Below are positions 1-45,963 of a stretch of DNA of 54,633 nucleotides, in pieces. Made by a program: the position numbers and the translations under genes. The notes beneath the pieces are model-generated. The model made no database searches. It had not been told where the DNA came from and saw only the letters and a program-made list of their open reading frames with translations. The DNA lies in the NCBI GenBank assembly GCA_000961585.1, contig LADN01000011.1, positions 1 through 54,633 of the forward strand, read 5' to 3'. Numbering within the stretch: position 1 is the stretch's first letter; each line of letters begins with the position of its first letter. Origin of the DNA: Peptococcaceae bacterium BRH_c4a (GTDB lineage: Bacteria; Bacillota; Desulfotomaculia; Desulfotomaculales; Desulfocucumaceae).

Positions 1-445
1 AAAAACGCCCTGACGGGCGTTGCCGTCTTGCAGACGGCGGAAGCCAGAAGCCAGGAGCCAGAATAGTGACAGCCTGCCTTAAAAGCGACCCTCAAGAGAC
101 CCCATAGCGACATGCAGTGAGGGGGAGTGATTTAAGTCCGTGCGGAATGTACCGGAGGCTGCTACTGTCTCTTAACGACCGAGCCTACGGAATGCCGAGC
201 CGGCTGCAGGACGCAGCCGGAAGCCGGAATCGACGCATGGATGCGGCGTTGGAGGCGGTCGGCATTCCGTTGGCGACCGAGTTTAGAGACAGTTGCAGCA
301 GGAGGTTATGCAGGCCGGACTTAAATCGCTCCACCTACCCATTAGTGACCATGTAGCGACCCTCAAGTGACCCAGGAGCGACCCAAAAAAATGAAGTTGG
401 TCATGGTTGCAAAAAAGTTATCCACAATTCTCGAAAAGCATAATT
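1..445 (+). repeat. Dispersed hairpin repeat, copy 1 (complete)
   Basis: No gene is visible. The unit opens with a GC hairpin (CGCCC/GGGCG), then GCCGTC/GACGGC, then period-7 repeats of the GCCAGAA type. Next comes a direct repeat GCGACCCTCAAG (85-96 and 356-367) that brackets a long imperfect palindrome. Its arms pair as 124-139 with 317-332, 164-172 with 285-293, and 187-198 with 259-270. An inner 8-bp hairpin, CCGGCTGC/GCAGCCGG, lies at 200-220. The unit ends near a TTATCCACA 9-mer (418-426). Related copies lie at about 31575-32025 (reversed), 35846-36205, 50587-50815 (truncated) and 53588-53790 (without the palindrome). ORFs of 79 and 106 codons here are repeat translations and are not called. 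I do not recognise the family by name. Confidence 0.85.
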
Positions 446-21264: not shown

Positions 21265-22089
21265 TTATGACACAACCGCTGATTGCTTCCCCAGGGCGTT
21301 TTTGATGTCACCGGCGAGCCGGCTGACCCTTTGTATTGCACCGGTTACTCCACCCTCTCCCGGCACCGCCCTTACAATGGCGCTGCCCACCACCACGGCG
21401 TCAAAATCCTCGGCCACGCGGCGTGCCATTTCCGGTCCCGAAACTCCGAAACCCACTGCCAGCGGAAGATCGGCATGCCTCCTCAGCCGTTGCGCAAAGG
21501 CCTTCAGGTCGGTTTTTATTGCATTTGTGGAGCCGGTTACACCGGTAACAGATACGCAGTAAATAAAGCTGTCCGCCCCGGAGGTTATTCTTTTCAGTCT
21601 TTCATCGGTTGATGTCGGGGCTGCCAGGGGAACCAGCGAAAGTCCGTATTCCCGGCATGCGTTCCTCAGGGGCTGGTCCTCCTCCACCGGCAGGTCCGGC
21701 ACTATAAATCCGTCTATCCCCGATTCCCGGGACATACTGACAAAATTGCCGATGCCGTACCTCATCACAGGGTTATAATAGGTCATGGCCAGAACCGGCA
21801 GGTCGGTGTGGTTTCTCAGCTTTCCGGCAATGTTAAATATATCCGACAGCCTGATTCCCCCCGCCAGGGCCTGCTGGGAGGACTGCTGGATCACAGGGCC
21901 GTCGGCCACCGGGTCGGAAAAGGGAAAGCCTATTTCTATCAGGTCTGATCCCGAATCGGCCAGGGCTTTTAATATATCCAGTGTTTGCACAGCATCCGGG
22001 TATCCTGCGGTGGTATAGGTTATTAAACCTTTTTCTCCCCGCTTGCGGAGATTGTTAAACGCATTTGCTATTCTTTCAGTTCCGGTCAT
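21265..22089 (-). CDS. trpA: Tryptophan synthase alpha chain
   Basis: TrpA cleaves indole-3-glycerol phosphate to indole. The 274-residue protein has LIEIGFPFSDPVADGPVIQ near residue 50, which includes the catalytic Glu, then DGFIVPDLPVEE near residue 128 and GFGVSGPE near residue 213. Its start shares a base with the trpB stop. It is the last gene of the trp operon. Confidence 0.98.
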   Translation of the reverse strand: MTGTERIANAFNNLRKRGEKGLITYTTAGYPDAVQTLDILKALADSGSDLIEIGFPFSDPVADGPVIQQSSQQALAGGIRLSDIFNIAGKLRNHTDLPVLAMTYYNPVMRYGIGNFVSMSRESGIDGFIVPDLPVEEDQPLRNACREYGLSLVPLAAPTSTDERLKRITSGADSFIYCVSVTGVTGSTNAIKTDLKAFAQRLRRHADLPLAVGFGVSGPEMARRVAEDFDAVVVGSAIVRAVPGEGGVTGAIQRVSRLAGDIKNALGKQSAVVS

Positions 22090-23282
22090 TAAAAATCCAC
22101 CCCCTGATATCCGGCCACCGTGTCCACGTCTTTGTCCCCCCGGCCGGAAAGGTTTACCACCATGACGCTGTCACGACTCATTTTCCCTGCCGTTCTGATG
22201 GCCTCGGCCAGGGCGTGGGAGCTTTCCAGGGCCGGTATAATGCCTTCGGTGCGGCAAAGCACCTGGAATGCCTGCAGGGCTTCCCGGTCGGTCACCGAGG
22301 CATAGCTTACCCTCCCGGTGTCTTTGAGATGGCTGTGCTCAGGACCCACACCCGGATAATCCAGTCCGGCGGAAATTGAGTGGGCCAGTTTGATTTGTCC
22401 CTCGGAGTTCTGCAAAACGTAGCTTAAGGATCCGTGCAGCACTCCCGGGCTGCCTGCGGTGAGGGTAGCGGCGTGATTTTCGGTGTCCATTCCGCGGCCT
22501 GCCGCTTCCACTCCCAGCAGTCTGGTTTTATCCTGAAGGAAGGGGTGGAATATTCCCATGGCGTTGCTTCCCCCTCCCACGCAGGCTATGATGCAGTCAG
22601 GAAGCCTTCCTTCATATTCCATGATTTGTTTTTTGGTTTCTTCCCCAATTATCTTTTGAAAGTCCCTCACCATCATGGGGTAGGGATGGGGCCCGGCCAC
22701 AGATCCCACCAGATAGTAAGTATTATCAACATTTGCCACCCAGTCCCGCATGGCGTCATTCATGGCGTCCTTCAGTGTCCGGCTGCCCGAGGAAACAGGA
22801 ACTACGGCGGCGCCCAGAAGCTTCATGCGGACCACGTTTAAAGATTGCCTGGCCATGTCCTCCTCACCCATGTAAACGGCGCACTCCATATCGAAAAGGG
22901 CTGCGGCGGTGGCGGTGGCCACGCCGTGCTGGCCGGCCCCTGTTTCAGCTATTACCCTCTTCTTTTTCATTCTGTTGGCCAGGAGAATCTGGCCTATGGT
23001 GTTATTAATCTTGTGGGCGCCGGTGTGATTGAGGTCTTCCCTTTTGAGGTAAATTTTGGCACCCCCGCAGTAGTCGGTAAGCCTTCCGGCATAATAAAGC
23101 TCCGAAGGCCTGCCCACATATTTTTTTAAAAGCGTGTAATATTCTTTCTTGAACTCCTCGTCGGCCTGGGCCTGCCTGTATGCCGCAGCCAGCTCTTCAA
23201 GGGCGGGCATCAGTGTTTCAGGGACGAACCTGCCCCCGTAACAGCCGTAATACCCCCTATTGTCGGGCATTATTTCAGTCAC
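22089..23282 (-). CDS. trpB: Tryptophan synthase beta chain (TrpB1 type)
   Basis: TrpB joins indole and serine using pyridoxal phosphate. The 397-residue protein has the lysine motif HTGAHKINN near residue 85, [11 protein letters not shown] near residue 113 and the phosphate-binding loop GGGSNAMG near residue 233. It overlaps trpF by eight bases and trpA by one. A second, TrpB2-type gene lies at 45995-47353. Confidence 0.98.
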
Positions 23283-23892
23283 CTTTTACCCTCCTTACAA
23301 AATGCTTTATTTTGTTTATATCCTTTTGGCCCTCAGTCTCTACCCCGCTGCTTACGTCAACGGCGTACGGCCTCACCAGATTTATGGCCTGACGCACATT
23401 TTCCGGGCAGAGCCCCCCCGCCAGCACCAGGGGGCCGGCCGAAAAGCAGGCTGCCAGTTTCCAGTCAAAGGCTATTCCGGTACCCCCCCTTAACCCCCGG
23501 GCCGGGGTGTCCAGCAGGTAGCCGTCCACTTCATACATCATTGCTCTTTCCATATCCTGTTCACCGGATACTGAGAAAGACTTGATCACTTTGTATCCAT
23601 TGATGGCCTTGCAGTATTCCGGTGATTCATCCCCGTGGAGCTGGACGGTGTCCAGCCCGGTGTAGCCGGCTATTTGCTCAACCTGGTCCGCCGGCAGGTT
23701 CACAAAAACACCTACCCTGGATATGAAGGGAGGCAGCCTTTTAATTATCTCCCTGGCCTTATCCGGGCTTAGCATTCTCCTGCTGGGGGCGAATACAAAG
23801 CCCAGGGCGTCGGCCCCGGCCTCAACCGCCCCCAGAGCCGTTTCCAGATCACCTATGCCGCATATTTTAATTCTGACAGAGTGTTTATTCAT
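23275..23892 (-). CDS. trpF: Phosphoribosylanthranilate isomerase
   Basis: TrpF catalyses the Amadori rearrangement of PRA. The protein has the N-terminal KICGIGDLE with the catalytic Cys, FVAFPSRR-like [15 protein letters not shown] and the C-terminal DVSSGVE. The ATG at 23892 follows GAGGG at good spacing; two earlier in-frame starts (23913, 23904) are less likely. Confidence 0.97.
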
Positions 23893-23928
23893 AGCGTCCC
23901 TCATTTGCCTCAAAGCCCCGGTGTTGTT

Positions 23929-24726
23929 TTACTCCCGGAGGCCATTTTTACCGTATCTTAATTCCCTGACTTTGGCGGCAATGTCTTCAGACCTCATGAT
24001 GGACTCCCCCACCAGGGCCCCGTCAACACCGGCCTCCCTGATCATCTCCATGTCGGATCTGGATTTGACGCCGCTTTCACTTATCACCACCTGGCTTATT
24101 CCCTTGAATTTTTCCATTAGCCGCAGGGTGGTGCCGATGTCTGTGCTGAAGGTTTTGAGATCCCGGTTGTTTATTCCTATAATACCTGCGCCGCAGCCCA
24201 GGGCGGAGTCCATTTCCAGTTCGTTGTGCACCTCCACAATGACCTCAAGGCCGGAGTCATTGGCCACCCCCAGGAGGCTTCTCAGTTTTTCGGGCGACAG
24301 TGCGGCACATATCAGCAGCACGGCGTCGGCCCCCAGTGTCCGGGCCTGGTAAATCTGCACCGGGTCGATGATGAAATCCTTTCTGAGAATGGGAAGGCCG
24401 GCGGCCTTCCTGACCAGCGGTATATATTCCGGACGACCCGCAAAAAATTTATCATCGGTCAGCACCGAAATGGCGTCTGCTCCGCTTTTTGAATATATTT
24501 CGGCTATGTCAAAAGCATTGAAATCCTCCCGGATGATTCCCTTAGATGGTGAGGCCTTCTTAATCTCGGCCAGCAGGGTGACGCTCCCCGGTTTTCTCAG
24601 CGCACCCGCCATGGACCGCACCGGAGGCAGCTGTTCAATTATTTTCAGGGCATCCCCGGCGTTAAAGCTCCTTTTGAGTTCTTCCACCTCGTAGTGCTTA
24701 TGGTTGATAATCTCTTGAAGGATCAT
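23929..24726 (-). CDS. trpC: Indole-3-glycerol phosphate synthase
   Basis: TrpC closes the indole ring. The 265-residue protein has AEIKKASPSKG near residue 52, SVLTDDKFF near residue 88, the PILRKDFIID block near residue 110, IGINNRDL near residue 178 and SESGVKS near residue 212. It overlaps the trpD stop by four bases (ATGA). Confidence 0.98.
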   Translation of the reverse strand: MILQEIINHKHYEVEELKRSFNAGDALKIIEQLPPVRSMAGALRKPGSVTLLAEIKKASPSKGIIREDFNAFDIAEIYSKSGADAISVLTDDKFFAGRPEYIPLVRKAAGLPILRKDFIIDPVQIYQARTLGADAVLLICAALSPEKLRSLLGVANDSGLEVIVEVHNELEMDSALGCGAGIIGINNRDLKTFSTDIGTTLRLMEKFKGISQVVISESGVKSRSDMEMIREAGVDGALVGESIMRSEDIAAKVRELRYGKNGLRE

Positions 24727-25769
24727 GATATGGCCTTCTTCTCCGACTTTGCGGAGGTGAATTCCGCCATTTCCTTTAGTTTATTTGAAGCCTGACCGGA
24801 ATCAATGCTTATTTCGGCCAATTTCATACCCCCGGCGAAATCTTCGGCCAGTCCTGCCGCCACCAGGGCCAGGGAGGCGTTGATCACCACGGCGTCCCGC
24901 CTGGGGCCTCTTTCACCGGCCAGTACGGCGTTGATTATGGCGGCGTTTTCCGCAGGGGACCCGCCTCGCAAATCATCAATGCCGGCCCTTTTAACGCCAA
25001 AGTCCAGGGGGTCAATTTCCATTTGGCTTATCTTCCCGCCGGACACCTCGCACACATAAGCCGGCCCCAGGGGGGTTAATTCGTCAGTTCCGCCGGCTCC
25101 GTGCAGCACAAAGGCCCTCCTGGTTCCCAGTCTGGCCAGCACACCGGCCAGCTTGGGAACCAGATCCCTGCTGAATACTCCCAGCACCTGGGCGCTGGCC
25201 CCGGCCGGATTAGTCAGGGGGCCCAGCACATTAAAAACAGTCCTTACCCCGATCTCCCTGCGGGGACCGGCGGCGTGCTTCATTGCCCCGTGCAGCGCCG
25301 GCGCGAAAAGAAAGGCTATTCCCAGTTTGTCCAGGCACTCCTCTTTTTCATTGGCAGTGAGATTTATGTTTACCCCCAGGGCCTCCAAAACATCGGCCGA
25401 CCCGCACCGGCTGGAGACCGACCGGTTGCCGTGCTTTGCCACCGGGGCGCCGCACCCGGCCACCACCAGGGCTGCGGCTGTGGATATGTTAAAGGTGTTC
25501 GCCCCGTCCCCGCCGGTGCCGCAGGTGTCCACCACCATTTTATGGCGGGTGTGAACCGGGGTGGCCTTATCCCTCATTACCCTGGCAAAGCCGGTTATTT
25601 CCTCAACGGTTTCCCCCTTCAGCCGCATGGCAATCAGAAGAGCGGCTATCTGGGCCGGGGTGGCCTGGCCGTCCATGATCAGACCCATTACAGCCCTGGC
25701 CTCTTCCTCTCCCAAATGGCTTCCGGCCACCACCTTTTGTATGGAACGGATTATGTCGGCGTTTTCCAT
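24723..25769 (-). CDS. trpD: Anthranilate phosphoribosyltransferase
   Basis: TrpD attaches phosphoribose to anthranilate. The 348-residue protein has the PRPP-binding CGTGGDGANTFN near residue 85, KHGNRSVSSRCGSAD near residue 112 and the GPLTNPAGA block near residue 182. It overlaps trpG by one base and trpC by four. Confidence 0.98.
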   Translation of the reverse strand: MENADIIRSIQKVVAGSHLGEEEARAVMGLIMDGQATPAQIAALLIAMRLKGETVEEITGFARVMRDKATPVHTRHKMVVDTCGTGGDGANTFNISTAAALVVAGCGAPVAKHGNRSVSSRCGSADVLEALGVNINLTANEKEECLDKLGIAFLFAPALHGAMKHAAGPRREIGVRTVFNVLGPLTNPAGASAQVLGVFSRDLVPKLAGVLARLGTRRAFVLHGAGGTDELTPLGPAYVCEVSGGKISQMEIDPLDFGVKRAGIDDLRGGSPAENAAIINAVLAGERGPRRDAVVINASLALVAAGLAEDFAGGMKLAEISIDSGQASNKLKEMAEFTSAKSEKKAIS

Positions 25770-26365
25770 CAGACGACCTCCTTAATTTCATCAGTTATCC
25801 GGTTGTTAATCAAAAAGTTGCGTAAAAGCTGGTAGCCGTGATCGGTAAGAATGGACTCCGGGTGAAACTGTACCCCTTCCACGCTGCATTTGCTGTGTCG
25901 TATTCCCATTATTTCACCGTCATCGGTCCAGGCGCTTACCTCAAGGCACTGGGGCACATTCCGGGGGTCCACCACCAGGGAGTGATACCTGATGGCTGAG
26001 AATGGAGAGGGAATCCCCTTAAATACACCCCTGCCGTCATGGTGTATCATGGATGTTTTGCCGTGCATAATGGTTCGGGCCCTGACCACCGGCCCGCCGT
26101 AAACGCTGCCTATGGCCTGGTGTCCCAGGCACACTCCCAGTATCGGTATGGAGCCGGCAAACCTTCTGATCACGTCATTGGTTATCCCGGCCCCTTCGGG
26201 CCGCCCCGGGCCCGGTGATATGACCAGCCCGGCCGGGGAAATTTTTTCGATGTCGGTTACCGTCAGGGCATCATTTCTCTCCACCGTGACATCCGCCCCC
26301 AGCTCGGAAAAGTACTGGGCCAGGTTGTAGGTGAAGGAGTCGTAGTTGTCAATAATTAACAGCAA
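25769..26365 (-). CDS. trpG: Anthranilate synthase glutamine amidotransferase component
   Basis: TrpG supplies ammonia from glutamine to TrpE. The protein has [11 protein letters not shown] at the N-terminus, [12 protein letters not shown], the nucleophile motif [10 protein letters not shown] and the C-terminal VQFHPES. A TTG start at 26365 gives the family-typical [11 protein letters not shown] and correct ribosome-site spacing. The ATG at 26371 abuts GGAGG. The gene starts inside the end of trpE. Unlike B. subtilis, trpG is inside the trp operon. Confidence 0.95.
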
Positions 26366-27833
26366 TTCCATCCTCCTCCTCGGCCAGGGTCATTAAAAGA
26401 GCCCCGGCTTTATTTTCGGTTTCTATAAACTCTCGGGCCGGGTCGGAGTCGGCCACTATTCCCGCCCCCACCTGCACCGAGGCCAATCCCTGGTGAAAGA
26501 CTATGGTGCGTATGGCAATGGCGGTATCCACATTGCCGTTGAACCCGATGTAGCCCACCGCCCCGGCGTAAGGCCCCCGCCTGGACGGCTCCAGTTCCTC
26601 TATTATTTCCATGGCCCGCACCTTTGGGGCCCCGGATACAGTTCCGGCGGGAAAGCAGGCCTTCAGAACATCGCTTCCGCATAGCCCCTCTTTCAGTTCT
26701 CCCCGCACCGAGGATACTATGTGCATGACGTGGGAGTACAATTCCACCTCCATAAACTGCTGCACCTTCACCGTTCCCGGTTTGCACACCCTTCCCAGGT
26801 CGTTTCTGCCCAGATCCACCAGCATAACGTGCTCGGCCCTTTCCTTTATGTCCGAAAGCAGTTCTGCGGCCAGTTCCCTGTCCTGCTGGGGGCCTGATCC
26901 TCTGGGTCTGGTTCCTGCAATGGGCCTCGTCTCCACATTTCCGCCCTCCACCCGGACCAGCATTTCGGGGGAGGAGCCCGCCATGGTAATCCCTCCCATG
27001 TCCAGGTAGTAGAGGTACGGTGAAGGATTGTTTCTCCTCAGCCTTCTGTAAACCCTGAAGGGATCTCCCTTGAAGTCGATGTCTATCCTTCTGGACAGCA
27101 CCACCTGCAGTATATCCCCCGCTTTTATGTATTCCTTGGCGGCCTCCACCCTGTCCATGTACCCGGACCTGGACAGGTTTGTTCTGGTCGCTCTGTGCAT
27201 GCCTTTACCGGCGGGGGCCAAGCCCGGGGGGGGCGATCCTTCCCTTATCCGGGCCAGCACGTCATTAATGGCGGCTGCTGCCCTGCTGTAATCCTCCCTG
27301 CCGTCCCCGGTGGGAACGGTGTTGACAACCACCCTGAGGGTATGTTTCAGGTGATCCATGATAATATTTATCCTGGGAACCATCAGTATGCAGTCGGCAA
27401 CCCCGGTGTCGCTGCGCCCCAGATCGGGCAGTCTTTCAAGGTGTCTGACCATATCGTACCCCATATAGCCCACGGCTCCCCCGTAGAATCGGGGCATTTT
27501 GTCCAGTACCGGTGAGCGGAAGTCATTGATAAGCTTTTCGATGACGGCAAAAGGGTCTCCGGTCAGTTCTTCCCTATGGCCATCTTTTTCCAGGGTGGTG
27601 ATTCCCCTGTGGCAGGTGATCATCATATAGGGATCAAAGCCTATGAAGGAATACCTGCCCAGCCTTTCAGCCCCTTCCACGCTCTCCAGCAGAAAAGAGG
27701 CCTTTCCCCCGGCCAGCTTTGCATATAAGGTGATGGGGGTTTCGGTGTCCGAAGGCCATTCTGCGCTGACAGGCACAGACTTATAGTCTCGGCAGAGTTC
27801 AAGGTATTCTTTTTCGTCCGGGTAGTACATCAT
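26349..27833 (-). CDS. trpE: Anthranilate synthase component I
   Basis: TrpE converts chorismate to anthranilate. From the ATG at 27833, preceded by GGGGAGG, the protein is 494 residues. It has an N-terminal LLESVEG feedback-site motif (residues 45-51) and the chorismate-binding C-terminal half with [37 protein letters not shown] and [11 protein letters not shown]. It is the first gene of trpEGDCFBA and lies 23 bases after an intrinsic terminator that follows a TRAP-like site, so attenuation control is expected. Confidence 0.98.
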
Positions 27834-27850
27834 AATAACCTCCCCATAAT

Positions 27851-27879
27851 AAAAAACCGGCACCCAAATGAGTACCGGT
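27851..27879 (-). terminator. Intrinsic terminator (attenuator) in the trpE leader
   Basis: On the minus strand a 10-bp stem ACCGGTACTC/GGGTGCCGGT with an ATTT loop and two G-T pairs is followed by six T residues. It lies between the NAG-triplet array and the trpE ribosome site, as expected for an attenuator. A candidate antiterminator would pair AGATGAG (within triplets 3-4 of the array) with CTCATTT of the terminator's 5' arm and loop, seven pairs. Confidence 0.85.
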
Positions 27880-27915
27880 TAAAATGCCTTAATAAGCAAT
27901 TTTAAACAGAAAATC

Positions 27916-27968
27916 CCCATCTCAGCTCAACTGCTCTCAGCTATTCTATTCTCATCTCAGCTAATCTA
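27916..27968 (-). promoter_or_regulatory. TRAP-type RNA binding site (11 NAG triplets) in the trp leader
   Basis: Read 5'-3' on the minus strand the triplets are TAG, TAG, GAG, GAG, TAG, TAG, GAG, CAG, GAG, GAG, GGG. Each is separated by exactly two bases, so 11 triplets occupy 53 bases. This matches the TRAP (MtrB) site of Bacillus trp leaders, where an 11-mer protein ring binds 11 (G/U)AG repeats. Nine of eleven are perfect. An intrinsic terminator follows before trpE. The first six triplets overlap the last codons of the upstream gene, whose TAG stop is triplet six. No mtrB gene is in the window. Confidence 0.75.
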
Positions 27969-29455
27969 TTAATTAAATTAACACAGCGGGGCCATACTGT
28001 CAACATAAAAGCATACGGCAAGCTATTTTTTACAGCCACTTCGGACTTAAGAGTTTCCAGCGCCCTCTGGTAGCCCTGCCATTGATTACCTTCGTTCAGC
28101 GCCCTGATCATCTCCAGTCGTCCCCTGGCAGGCTCTCCTGTTTTATCATAGCAGCGGGAAAGGGCAAATCTGGCCTCAGACCATATCGGCCCGGGAAATC
28201 CTTTCAGCGACAGTTCCAGGAATGGAAGGGCCTCTGCGTGTCTTTCCAGACCCACCAGGGCCAAACCCTTCAATCTCTGGAAGTCAGCGTTTGAGGGGTG
28301 ACTCTGGGGGATATTAATGCCTTCACCGGCGGTTTTCAGCGCCAGGGCAAATTCACCGCTGCGCAGGTAGGCCTCGGCAAGGTAATACTGCGCCGATCTG
28401 TTGACAGACACCTTTGGGGCCATGCTTTGGTAGTAATCAACCACCTTTTTGTAGTAACCGGGCAGGTACTCCACCGGGGCAAACATTTTGCCGTTCCATT
28501 TAAATACAGGTATGCTGTATGTATCGCCATGATCTTTCTGCCAAAGCGCAAATTCATTTTTGCCGTCACCGTCGAAATCGCCCTGTTCAAACCTGTGGTA
28601 CATCCCGCTAAACAATAAGTCGGCGCTGCCGCCCTTAAATGAGTATATTTCGATGTGTGAGCCAATGGCCGCACCGAAGTTCCAGCCCACCATCAATTCA
28701 CTGCCGCCGCCGTTTAAATCGGCCAACTCCAGCAGTGAGGGAGGGAATTCCTCTTCCTTTTGCCACAGCTTCAGGAAGCCTTCACTATCCTGCCGGTATA
28801 CCATAACACCATACTTGCCGTTATTATTCCGGTACAGTGCGGAATACTCGTCCTTCCCGTCACCGTCCAGATCACTCTTTTTTATGACTTTGCCGGTCTC
28901 AAAAAATTCCGATCCCGAGGGCAGCAAATCCCCGTAAATTTTTACCTTGGGCTGCTGTGCCAAAGGTGGTCCCGGCATTGTGGAAAGATGAAAGGTATTC
29001 TCTTTTGTATTGTAAGTAACGCTGTAACCAAGGGCCGGGGCCACCGTGTTCAAGGGCACGTAAATGACCCCGTCCGCCGATCTGGGGGGTTGGGTCAAGG
29101 TGGTTTCGGCGCCGTTTATTAGCGCGCCCTTTCTGTCAATGAAAAGCTCCAGCAGGTGGTCCCCTTTTTTGATGAGGATTCCCCCGGTCCCTGGGAAAAA
29201 ACTATATTCCGCCCCGGTGAACCCGGCCAGGTCTGTTACCGGGGTAAGATAATCAAATTCCCCCGGCCTTGTTTCCCAAAGGGAGTCAACCCGTACCCCG
29301 TCCACCGTTATCAATGGCCGGGAGGCTTGACTGGAAGCTCCGTAAGAAGCAATTGCCGAAACCGGGAGGGCTACGGCAAATATGATCACCGACAGGGCTA
29401 TTCTGAACCTAACCGACAAAACCGGCACGCTCCCTGTAAACCGTTCTATAACCAT
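27941..29455 (-). CDS. Secreted protein: copper-amine-oxidase-N-like, Ca-binding FG-GAP-like and TPR-like segments
   Basis: The 504-residue protein begins with a basic N-terminus and a signal peptide or anchor (about residues 17-38, ending near SAIASYGAS). A stalk resembling the copper amine oxidase N-terminal domain follows (about residues 45-155, VIYVPLNTVAPALGYSVTYN). Then come two Ca-binding loops of the FG-GAP/VCBS type (DLDGDGKDE and DFDGDGKNE), and TPR-like helices from about residue 355. It is probably extracellular and its function is unknown. Its last codons overlap both the trp promoter and the TRAP-like array, so its 3' end doubles as regulatory DNA. Confidence 0.75.
   Translation of the reverse strand: MVIERFTGSVPVLSVRFRIALSVIIFAVALPVSAIASYGASSQASRPLITVDGVRVDSLWETRPGEFDYLTPVTDLAGFTGAEYSFFPGTGGILIKKGDHLLELFIDRKGALINGAETTLTQPPRSADGVIYVPLNTVAPALGYSVTYNTKENTFHLSTMPGPPLAQQPKVKIYGDLLPSGSEFFETGKVIKKSDLDGDGKDEYSALYRNNNGKYGVMVYRQDSEGFLKLWQKEEEFPPSLLELADLNGGGSELMVGWNFGAAIGSHIEIYSFKGGSADLLFSGMYHRFEQGDFDGDGKNEFALWQKDHGDTYSIPVFKWNGKMFAPVEYLPGYYKKVVDYYQSMAPKVSVNRSAQYYLAEAYLRSGEFALALKTAGEGINIPQSHPSNADFQRLKGLALVGLERHAEALPFLELSLKGFPGPIWSEARFALSRCYDKTGEPARGRLEMIRALNEGNQWQGYQRALETLKSEVAVKNSLPYAFMLTVWPRCVNLINRLAEMRIE
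27975..28003 (-). promoter_or_regulatory. Probable sigma-A promoter of the trp operon
   Basis: On the minus strand a perfect -35 TTGACA (27998-28003) is followed 17 bases later by TAATTT (27975-27980). It lies inside the 3' coding end of the upstream gene. Transcripts would begin almost at the first NAG triplet. A TTTAAT three bases further on matches the -10 consensus better, but with a 20-base spacer. Confidence 0.55.
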
Positions 29456-31399: not shown

Positions 31400-31931
31400 T
31401 TGCCAGGGTTAAAATTCGGCCATGTTGATCAAAGTTGGCCGGCGGACCAGATGGCGGGGGGGGGGTTGCTGTTTCTTCCTGCGTTTTTAACCGGATTTTT
31501 TATCGTTGAGGAAAGTATATGTCATATTAAAGTGCTAAATCGCCAAAGCATTTTTATGCAAGCCCAGAGTTTTTCCGGGGTCGCCCCGGGGTCACTTGAG
31601 GGTCGCTGCATTGTCGCTAATGGGTAGGCGGAGCGATTTGAGTCCGGCCTGCATTACCTCCTGCTGCAACTGTCTCTAGACTCGGTCGCCAACGGAATGC
31701 CGACCATTTTGGAGGTAGGAGGCCAGAGGTTAGAGGTTAGAGGTTAGAAAACTTGTAGGAAATGACCTCAGAGCCATTTCTAGCTTAATCCGACTTCCAA
31801 CTTCCAACATCTAACCTCCAAATTCGTAGGCTCGGTCGTTAAGAGACAGTAGCAGCCTCCGGTACATTCCGCACGGACTCAAATCACTCCCCCTCACCGC
31901 ATGTCGCTGTGGGGTCTCTTGAGGGTCACTT
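31400..31931 (-). repeat. Dispersed hairpin repeat, copy 2 (reversed, loop replaced)
   Basis: Read on the minus strand this carries the same arms as copy 1 (GGAGTGATTTGAGTCC pairing with GGACTCAAATCGCTCC; CTGTCTCT with AGAGACAG). The flanks GCGACCCTCAAG and GAAAAACTC..GGGCTTGCA are also present. The apical part is replaced by about 110 bases (31712-31822) of period-7 sequence such as GAGGTTAGAGGTTAGAGGTTA. A C-rich run of about ten bases lies near 31455 (top strand G). No gene is visible between the sigma-H promoter and rluB. Confidence 0.8.
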
Positions 31932-33044
31932 TTAAAGTATGCTGTCACCATTCTGAATTCTGGCTTCTGGCTCCTGGATTCCGCCGTCTGCAAGACGGCA
32001 ACGCCCGTCAGGGCGTTTTTTTATTATCCCTCCTTTTCCAAAATTTTTATTCCTTCCTCTGGGGCTTTCTTTTTTCGGACCGGCGTTATCTTTTCTCTGT
32101 CCAGTATTATCCTTTTTGGGACCAGCGTTATATTTTCTCGATCCTGTACTATCTTTTTTGAGCCCGGCGTAATTTTTTTTGAGCCCGGCATTATCTTTTC
32201 CCGGTCTGGCATTATCTTTCTTCGGACCGGCGTTTTCTTTTTTCGCCCCGGAGTTATCTTTTCGCACACCGAATTTTTCTCTTTTCGGTCGGGTGGTTTC
32301 AAACTTCACCCTGGTTTTTTCTTTTTTCATTCCAAATTTTTTAAATAGCGCCTGCACCTCGTTATCCTTTAGATGCCTGTACCGGCCCGACTTTAAATCA
32401 CCCAGGGAAAGGCTGCCTACCCGGGTTCTCTTGAGCCTTAACACCTCGTGCCCCACTGTTTCCATCATTCGTCTGATTTGTCTGTTCCGGCCTTCTGAAA
32501 TGGTTACCTCCAGCAGGGCGTTGCCTTCATATTGATCAATCAGGCTTATCTCGGCCGGGGCCGTTACACCGTCTTCCAGCATTACCCCCTCGGCCAGCGT
32601 TTCAAGCTCTTTTCTGGTGGGGATGCCCTTTATCCTGACCTTGTATGTTTTGGGGACGCTGTGACCAGGGTGAGTCAGCCAATAGGCCAGTTCCCCGTCG
32701 TTGGTGAGCAGTAGCAGCCCCTCACTGTCGTAGTCCAGCCTTCCCACCGGGTAAACCCTTTCCTTCACGTCTTTCAGAAGATCGGTGACAATTTTTCTGC
32801 CCCTGGGATCCTTTACGGTGGACAAATATCCCCTGGGTTTATTCAATAAAATGTAAACTTTTTGTTCAGTAGCAACCAGCCGCCGGCCGTCCACCTCCAC
32901 CCTGACTTTGGCGGGATCCACCAGGGTTCCCGGTGTGGTCACGATTTTTCCGTTCACCTTTACCTTTCCTGAGGCTATAATCTCTTCGCAGGCCCTGCGG
33001 GAGGCCAGACCGTGCCTGGACATAAATTTCTGAAGTCTTTCCAT
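31932..33044 (-). CDS. rluB: Pseudouridine synthase RluB/RsuA family with repeat-rich C-terminal tail
   Basis: The enzyme family makes pseudouridine in 23S or 16S rRNA. From the ATG at 33044 the protein has an S4 domain (MERLQKFMSRHGLASRRA), the catalytic GRLDYDSEGLLLLTND motif near residue 102 and an EGRNRQIRRMM block near residue 185. After the core comes a low-complexity tail of about ten heptapeptides of the KKDNAGP type (DNA 32055-32264), very basic and probably RNA-binding or disordered. The last 30 or so residues (RPDGRCRLADGG..) are translated from an inserted dispersed repeat. Core identification is secure. Confidence 0.93.
   Translation of the reverse strand: MERLQKFMSRHGLASRRACEEIIASGKVKVNGKIVTTPGTLVDPAKVRVEVDGRRLVATEQKVYILLNKPRGYLSTVKDPRGRKIVTDLLKDVKERVYPVGRLDYDSEGLLLLTNDGELAYWLTHPGHSVPKTYKVRIKGIPTRKELETLAEGVMLEDGVTAPAEISLIDQYEGNALLEVTISEGRNRQIRRMMETVGHEVLRLKRTRVGSLSLGDLKSGRYRHLKDNEVQALFKKFGMKKEKTRVKFETTRPKREKFGVRKDNSGAKKENAGPKKDNARPGKDNAGLKKNYAGLKKDSTGSRKYNAGPKKDNTGQRKDNAGPKKESPRGRNKNFGKGGIIKKRPDGRCRLADGGIQEPEARIQNGDSIL
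31935..32025 (-). repeat. Dispersed repeat fused to the 3' end of rluB
   Basis: The two GC hairpins (CGCCC/GGGCG and GCCGTC/GACGGC) and the CCAGGAGCCAGAA heptamers occur in coding frame at the end of rluB. They give the peptide KKRPDGRCRLADGG. On the plus strand the first hairpin is followed by seven T residues. Confidence 0.85.
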
Positions 33045-33127
33045 GTACTGACCTACTTCCATCTGTAATAAATAATTACATGTGAATTTTACCATGGATA
33101 GCTGAAAGCTGACAGCTAATGTATTTA

Positions 33128-35845: not shown

Positions 35846-36205
35846 AAAAAACGCCCTGACGGGCGTTGCCGTCTTGCAGACGGCGGAATCCAGGAGCCAG
35901 AAGCCAGAATCCAGAAAAAGCAAGCATGACCCCCAAGCGACATGCAGTGAGGGGGAGGGGTTTTAGTCCAGGCGGATGTTCCGGAGGCTGTTATCTGGCT
36001 CTTGGCGACAGAGCCGTACGGACTGCCGAACCGGCTGCAGGACGCAGCCGGTAGCCGGAATCGACGCATGGACGCGGCGTTGGAGGCGGTCGGCAGTCCG
36101 TTAGGCGACGAGCTTAGAGCCAGTTCAGCCGGAGGATAAGTAGATCGGACTCAAACCCCTCCACCGGCCACAGAGTGACCCAGGAGCGACCCCAGAAAAA
36201 CTCTT
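35846..36205 (+). repeat. Dispersed hairpin repeat, copy 3 (complete)
   Basis: The order is the same as copy 1: GC hairpin, GCCGTC/GACGGC, heptamers, GCGACATGCAGTGAGGGGG, then the large palindrome. Arms pair 35954-35969 with 36147-36162, 35995-36002 with 36116-36123, and 36018-36029 with 36090-36101. The same inner hairpin CCGGCTGC/GCAGCCGG is present. Several paired positions differ from copy 1 on both arms so that pairing is kept. The right flank GAAAAACTCTTGGGCTTGCA matches copy 2. On the minus strand the first hairpin is followed by a T-run and may end transcripts coming from the CopZ-like gene side. Confidence 0.85.
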
Positions 36206-45765: not shown

Positions 45766-45963
45766 GAGATGAGATAGCGCTTCATCCGAAAGCTGGGAAT
45801 GTTTTCGGATGACAGTCCGGCACCTGTTCGGCGACGGCCCAGCAGCGGCTGTATGGTCAGCCGCAACTTCGGCGGTAAGCCCCTTGGCCCCGGATCATCG
45901 GTACCTTCCTCACCGGGATTACTCATGCGTTACCGCGCCTCTACCCCACTCCCTTACGGGAGA
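45766..45963 (-). promoter_or_regulatory. Lysine riboswitch (L box)
   Basis: On the minus strand the core elements appear in the known order: GGTAGAGGCGCG, ATGAGTA, GGTGAGGAAGG, CCGCCGAAG, GCTGGGCCGT, GGACTGTCA, then a P5-type hairpin CATCCGAAA/TTTCGGATG and GCGCTATCTC. GGTAG and CTATC can close P1. This matches the lysC L box of B. subtilis part by part. It lies between the TrpB2 gene and lysA and should shut lysA off when lysine is abundant. Confidence 0.9.

Follow-up and report, generated by a model that had tools for sequence, protein, structure and literature searches.

Organization of the trp locus

The window (the whole 54,633-nt stretch of DNA analysed here) carries on its minus strand a tryptophan operon in which a leader is followed by the closely spaced genes trpE, trpG, trpD, trpC, trpF, trpB and trpA (Table 1). 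The leader comprises a promoter, an array of eleven regularly spaced triplets, an intrinsic terminator and a Shine-Dalgarno sequence, and the ATG start codon of trpE lies at 27833. A 17-nt spacer separates the TTGACA and TAATTT elements, and the latter did not appear in a consensus promoter scan because it matches TATAAT at only three of six positions. Between the end of the −10 element and the first triplet lie 6 nt, so that the predicted transcript would begin almost at the array. Read from 27968, the triplets are TAG TAG GAG GAG TAG TAG GAG CAG GAG GAG GGG; thus nine of the 11 are GAG or TAG, and ten are NAG, with one GGG. The gap between the array and the terminator is 35 nt.

An initial annotation, made from the letters of the window, had described this promoter, the eleven NAG/GGG triplets spaced exactly 5 nt apart across 53 bases and the terminator before trpE, and all of these are present, the terminator stem having 11 pairs where 10 had been counted. 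It had also placed the promoter and the first six triplets inside the upstream gene, with a stop codon that is itself a triplet. The upstream open reading frame (ORF) bears this out: its last 27 codons traverse the promoter and triplets 1–6, and its stop codon (27943-27941) is triplet 6. AGCTGA-type heptamers, which had been reported near the site, were not found adjoining it; the heptamers that Tandem Repeats Finder detects in the window are GAAGCCA and AGAGGTT, the nearest at 31719-31748, and AGCTGA-like heptads were seen on another contig, near the pab locus described below.

Elsewhere in the window, a lysine riboswitch aptamer lies at 45767-45951 (-) (Rfam RF00168, 104.7 bits), and two TwoAYGGAY RNAs, at 150-307 (+) and 35979-36137 (+), score barely above the gathering score. 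A 21-nt tandem repeat of 9.3 copies (32068-32262), inside the ORF 31932-33095 (-), encodes a Lys/Asn/Gly-rich tail on what appears by eye to be a ribosomal large-subunit pseudouridine synthase.

Table 1. Positions of the features of the trp locus in the window, and of the pab leader on contig C47.
Feature	Position	Strand	Basis or remark
Upstream ORF	27941..29455	(-)	Copper amine oxidase N-terminal-like domain; weak TPR and FG-GAP matches
-35 element TTGACA	27998..28003	(-)	Sequence read; TTGACA also kept in family leaders
-10 element TAATTT	27975..27980	(-)	Sequence read
Predicted TRAP site, 11 triplets (9 KAG, 1 CAG, 1 GGG)	27916..27968	(-)	Exact 5-nt spacing, 53 bases
Predicted antiterminator, 5′ strand AGAUGGG (triplets 10-11)	27916..27922	(-)	Nascent folds and complementarity test
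Predicted antiterminator, 3′ strand CUCAUUU (top of terminator 5′ arm and loop)	27866..27872	(-)	Nascent folds and complementarity test
Intrinsic terminator (attenuator)	27855..27880	(-)	11-bp stem (6 G-C), 4-nt loop, then T-run
trpE Shine-Dalgarno GGGGAGG	27839..27845	(-)	By eye
trpE (anthranilate synthase I)	26349..27833	(-)	TIGR00564 above cut-off
trpG (glutamine amidotransferase subunit)	25769..26371	(-)	
trpD	24723..25769	(-)	
trpC	23929..24726	(-)	
trpF	23275..23913	(-)	
trpB	22089..23282	(-)	
trpA	21265..22089	(-)	
Putative pab leader (locus L025)	C47 50944-51044	(-)	Array, terminator and conserved hairpin upstream of pabA-pabB-pabC

The triplet array and the mtrB gene

When GAG/TAG triplets are counted across the whole window over 11 positions spaced by 5 nt, the minus strand reaches at most 9 and the plus strand at most 4. 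In 100 dinucleotide shuffles of the whole window the mean was 4.1 and the maximum 6, and when the local 170 nt were shuffled 2000 times, 0 of 2000 shuffles reached 9. The site is the sole occurrence in the 3.49-Mb genome of seven consecutive KAG triplets at 5-nt spacing, also when up to two mismatches are allowed. A control with reversed triplets was dropped in favour of the dinucleotide shuffles, since GAG is unchanged by reversal and the arrays themselves are picked up by such a control.

The initial annotation had made its reading of the array depend on an mtrB homologue, and the genome encodes a single one (C78:12715-12915; PF02081, E = 1.4e-38; NCBIfam equivalog NF009724, 138.6 bits with the cut-off at 117). 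The gene is flanked by the end of a dnaE-like ORF and by a pfkA-like ORF, both named by eye. The closest solved relatives of its product are all TRAP/MtrB chains, and the conserved block of MtrB reads FHHSEKLDKGE...AQFTEHTSA.KIRG. Unlike in B. subtilis, a search for an anti-TRAP gene in this genome found none. Within the order, G063 alone has a convincing anti-TRAP homologue (locus L291, 54.2 bits); the remaining matches in the order are weak, lie mostly in frames of 370-430 aa and are probably DnaJ zinc domains. A similar ORF fragment (MVTAYFKSDPQETPQRHAVRG...) is found at 31811-31993 of the window and near mtrB in locus L001, a recurrence that suggests a repeated element.

We found mtrB in 105 of the 113 genomes of the order and in 200 of the 398 genomes of the phylum sample. 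The congener G002 has a perfect trpE array, yet no mtrB match. We rejected the idea that it is a natural mtrB knockout, as the adjacent pfkA is apparently missing too and the only phosphofructokinase match of this genome appears to be a paralogue located away from mtrB; the dnaE-mtrB-pfkA segment is probably missing from the G002 assembly.

Conservation of the array at trpE

In the family, arrays are present in all seven readable trpE leaders, including that of G005 with 7 KAG of 11. Across the order, 72 of 87 trpE leaders passed the array score and 15 fell below it, some of the latter being short or cut by contig ends. A shuffle test on 76 leaders (11 of the 87 with an uncertain start were omitted) gave a mean best count of 5.51, against 2.50 in shuffled sequences, with p ≤ 0.05 in 59 leaders and p ≤ 0.01 in 51. 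The 5-nt periodicity, for which the initial annotation had pointed to close relatives, is thus retained: distances between KAG triplets peak at 5 (429, against 30 at 4 and 47 at 6), and also at 10 and 15. A simple search detected a terminator in 52 of the 72 array-bearing leaders. A scan of contigs for TrpE was set aside, its 80 retained loci being at most 52% identical and, judged by their titles, from other lineages.

Among eight more distant trpE-like genes, an array was found in G069 (6 of 11) and none in the other seven. Of these seven, three are without mtrB (G028, G031 and G018) and four have it (G026, G041, G091 and G105); the presence of mtrB therefore need not mean that TRAP controls trpE. 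Where a trpE-like gene is present, absence of mtrB accompanies absence of the array, except in G002. Nine genomes of the order (G085, G086, G087, G088, G092, G098, G102, G104 and G106) have mtrB with no TrpE match at E ≤ 1e-60, so TRAP may there control transport or pab instead.

Predicted antiterminator and attenuation mechanism

We folded nascent transcripts cut in the terminator loop. In all six family leaders so folded, the array or its 3′ edge pairs with the 5′ arm of the terminator; in G002 it is internal triplets that pair. When the array was held unpaired, mimicking bound TRAP, the pairing between array and terminator was lost and the terminator was free in these six leaders. Complementarity between the last triplets and the terminator tip averaged 6.27 over 53 leaders, against 4.63 in shuffled sequences and 3.84 in upstream controls; individually, p ≤ 0.05 was reached in 21 of the 53, and the leader described here (p 0.229) is not beyond shuffling. 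The partners co-vary, from AGAUGAG/CUCAUUU in this family to GAGUAGAG/CUCUACUU in G036 and AGAUGAGCAU/AUGUUCGUCU in G075. At the level of the group, these folds and pairings point to an antiterminator that would use part of the array and exclude the terminator.

Together, the array, the terminator, mtrB, the order-wide conservation and the covariation of the antiterminator support the initial proposal of Bacillus-type TRAP attenuation of trp, and we hold with a probability of roughly 0.94 that the leader is a Bacillus-type TRAP attenuator of the trp operon. From sequence and folding, we infer the transcript start, the dependence on tryptophan, the binding of TRAP and the termination at the trp leader as follows. 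The promoter would start a short leader RNA, with the 11-triplet TRAP site making up almost all of its 5′ end. At low tryptophan, TRAP would be unbound and AGAUGGG would pair with CUCAUUU in the top of the terminator 5′ arm and the loop, blocking the terminator and letting RNA polymerase read into the trp operon. With tryptophan available, the tryptophan-bound TRAP ring would wrap the array; the antiterminator could then not form, the terminator would fold, and transcription would stop before trpE.

The leader resembles that of B. subtilis in its 11 triplets, mostly GAG/UAG with 2-nt spacers, in an operon that starts with trpE and in the presence of mtrB in the genome, and differs in that trpG lies inside the trp operon. 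The B. subtilis trp leader has a 5′ stem-loop ahead of the TRAP site; here the array starts so soon after the −10 element that little or no room is left for such a stem-loop. Of the 67 leaders in which a promoter could be recognised, 58 have at most 30 nt between the −10 element and the array. In the excerpt of PMC4027176 used here, the B. subtilis antiterminator spans +60 to +111 and the terminator +108 to +133, and the two overlap and are mutually exclusive, as is predicted for the leader described here. The present terminator has a longer stem and a clean T-run, whereas the B. subtilis one is described as weak in the part of PMC3913778 that we draw on.

The same part of PMC3913778 describes that B. 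subtilis TRAP terminates transcription in the leader even with the attenuator mutated or deleted. This raises the alternative that the TRAP site is genuine and that its main effect is direct, by forced termination or a block of trpE translation, the antiterminator/terminator switch being secondary; the antiterminator pairing of this leader, which is not individually significant, fits such a view. Against it stand the 11-bp terminator stem with its T-run, the co-variation of the terminator tip with the last triplets across families, and the arrangement of the leader, in which 35 nt separate array and terminator and the Shine-Dalgarno sequence lies beyond the terminator, outside the array. We consider a mainly direct effect unlikely.

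Attenuation of trp genes is also known from the T-box trp leaders of Firmicutes (PMC2494555), and Rfam T-boxes lie at the trpE-like gene in some genomes of the order (G026, G028, G031, G041 and G091), which would be compatible with a T-box or other tRNA- or metabolite-sensing leader in which the triplets are incidental. The T-box covariance model, however, has no match in the window at the gathering threshold, the spacing of the triplets is exactly 5 nt across 53 bases, and array and mtrB recur together throughout the order, so that such a leader is very improbable here; the predicted sensor of free tryptophan is instead a protein.

The overlap with the upstream gene had led the initial annotation to state that the same bases serve as protein-coding sequence, promoter and RNA site. 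This is true of the present sequence but was probably not selected. The G002 homologue of the upstream protein shares 42% identity with it, and the alignment runs up to residue 477 of 504, at the end of the G002 protein, so the last 27 residues here are most simply explained as a recent C-terminal extension; the stop codon of the G002 gene precedes the promoter, which argues that no shared coding constraint has acted on the evolution of the array. In another genus of the family the gene upstream is a different one, aroH-like by eye. The overlap, as read from these sequences, is real but probably incidental. That the triplets are a by-product of AG-rich codons with no regulatory role, as their first six members inside codons of the upstream ORF might suggest, hardly deserves credence, because coding sequence does not have a period of 5 and five of the triplets lie beyond the stop codon, and congeners refute it by retaining the array although the homologous upstream gene has already ended.

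A second TRAP-like leader upstream of pabA-pabB-pabC

The seven-triplet pattern has one other match in the genome, at three mismatches (C47:51007-51044); a pabA-like gene lies about 80 nt downstream of it, and a terminator separates the two. The pabA-like gene is followed by pabB (TIGR00553, above cut-off) and by a class IV aminotransferase gene (pabC-like). The initial annotation had suggested that, with trpG inside the trp operon, one site could control all seven genes; the gene order fits this, but a second trpG-like gene, pabA, lies under the apparent second TRAP site.

In this genome the pab array has 7 NAG in 11 positions (p 0.003). Among 54 distinct pab arrays, which remain from 58 after removal of L269 (a duplicate), L286 (no terminator), L290 (chance-like) and one identical or short array, the mean NAG count is 5.26, against 3.34 in shuffled sequences, and 24 of the 54 have p ≤ 0.05. 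The signal is weaker for strict KAG (p ≤ 0.05 in 11 of 35; p 0.086 in this genome), and in the pab leaders of family f46 nine NAG triplets follow one another without a break. A conserved core, NAGACGACTCGKAG-N-GGGGTGAGNACCRGC, occurs together with the terminator in 27 of 47 pab loci whose selection took no account of the core (40 fetched by PabB and 7 of the family), and a CGC/GCG variant of it occurs in one further locus, that of G067. Those of the 47 loci that come from genomes of families f2, f6 and f7 lack the core, although these genomes have mtrB.

A covariance model of the pab core matched 56 of 398 phylum genomes at E ≤ 0.001. At E ≤ 7e-7 there were 32 genomes, and all 32 have mtrB, compared with 200 of 398 overall, a count in which related genomes are entered separately and which does not represent 32 independent events. 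Two of the 32 stand apart, G447 resembling a chance match and G318 being without the usual terminator; weaker matches, including those in genomes without mtrB, are probably mostly due to chance. G066 has two copies of the core on contig C244 (16465-16494 and 27661-27690), separated by about 11 kb, and a pabA-type gene lies downstream of each.

Directly 5′ of the terminator and abutting it lies a hairpin, CUCG/UGAG, with the loop KAG...GGGG. Across 56 distinct sequences it has at least 55 paired cells per position; six sequences, which represent at least two lineages (G067 and f46), show a compensatory change from U-A to G-C, and the stem stays paired in the CGC/GCG variants. The alternative ACUC/GGGU hairpin drawn by RNAalifold is disfavoured, two of its four pairs being broken in six sequences each. 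An upstream hairpin, GAG-ACGA-CUC, was rejected, as G, C, A and T all occur as first base of the triplet and no compensating change accompanies them. A leader peptide from the conserved GTG/ATG is unsupported: an ORF is present in 35 of 35 motif copies, with lengths that range from 4 codons to readthrough into pabA. Complementarity between the pab terminator arm and the array was not supported in 58 leaders (mean 5.10 versus 5.16 shuffled), so the pab leader cannot simply repeat the trp switch. A search of Rfam gave no meaningful family match for the pab leader.

Taken together, we regard it as fairly likely that, in this phylum, TRAP runs a second, differently built transcription attenuator before pabA-pabB-pabC, made up of a NAG-AC-GA-ending array and a hairpin that abuts the terminator. 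The hairpin may serve the TRAP ring as a docking element on the 3′ side, or TRAP may compete there with a ribosome, and the regulation could have either sign.

Work by Yang et al. in 1995 is said to have established that TRAP regulates B. subtilis trpG (pabA), at the level of translation. As in that system, the pab leader places a putative TRAP site ahead of a pabA/trpG-type gene that belongs to a pab operon; it differs in the terminator between array and pabA and in the separate trpG of the trp operon. The terminator after the array leads us to predict transcription attenuation here, in contrast to the translational control in B. subtilis. With ANTAR dual-hairpin leaders, as the section of PMC3369931 cited here presents them, the pab leader has in common a small hairpin beside a terminator. 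Its loop of about 10-15 nt contrasts with the six of the ANTAR leaders, and, unlike in them, its hairpin stands beside the terminator stem without overlapping it and follows a triplet array (PMC3369931, same section). We rejected an assignment to this class, as two six-nucleotide loops with A at position 1 and G at position 4 were not found in an alignment inspected by eye.

Discussion

In the open-licence literature, to which our survey was directed, we found no description of TRAP in this order, no TRAP attenuator at pab and no TRAP control of a pab operon outside Bacillus. We claim no novelty for the trp part; the pab leader is the part that could surprise specialists.

At the trp site, a textbook Bacillus attenuator is standard equipment across another order, in which 105 of 113 genomes carry mtrB, and dozens of leaders with co-changing triplets and terminator tips form a natural mutant series for the switch. 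If the pab leader is real, it would be a compact conserved RNA absent from Rfam, and TRAP would be a wider regulator of the chorismate branch that acts through an attenuator of different anatomy. Synthesis of the folate precursor would then be coupled to tryptophan despite the dedicated trpG in the trp operon.
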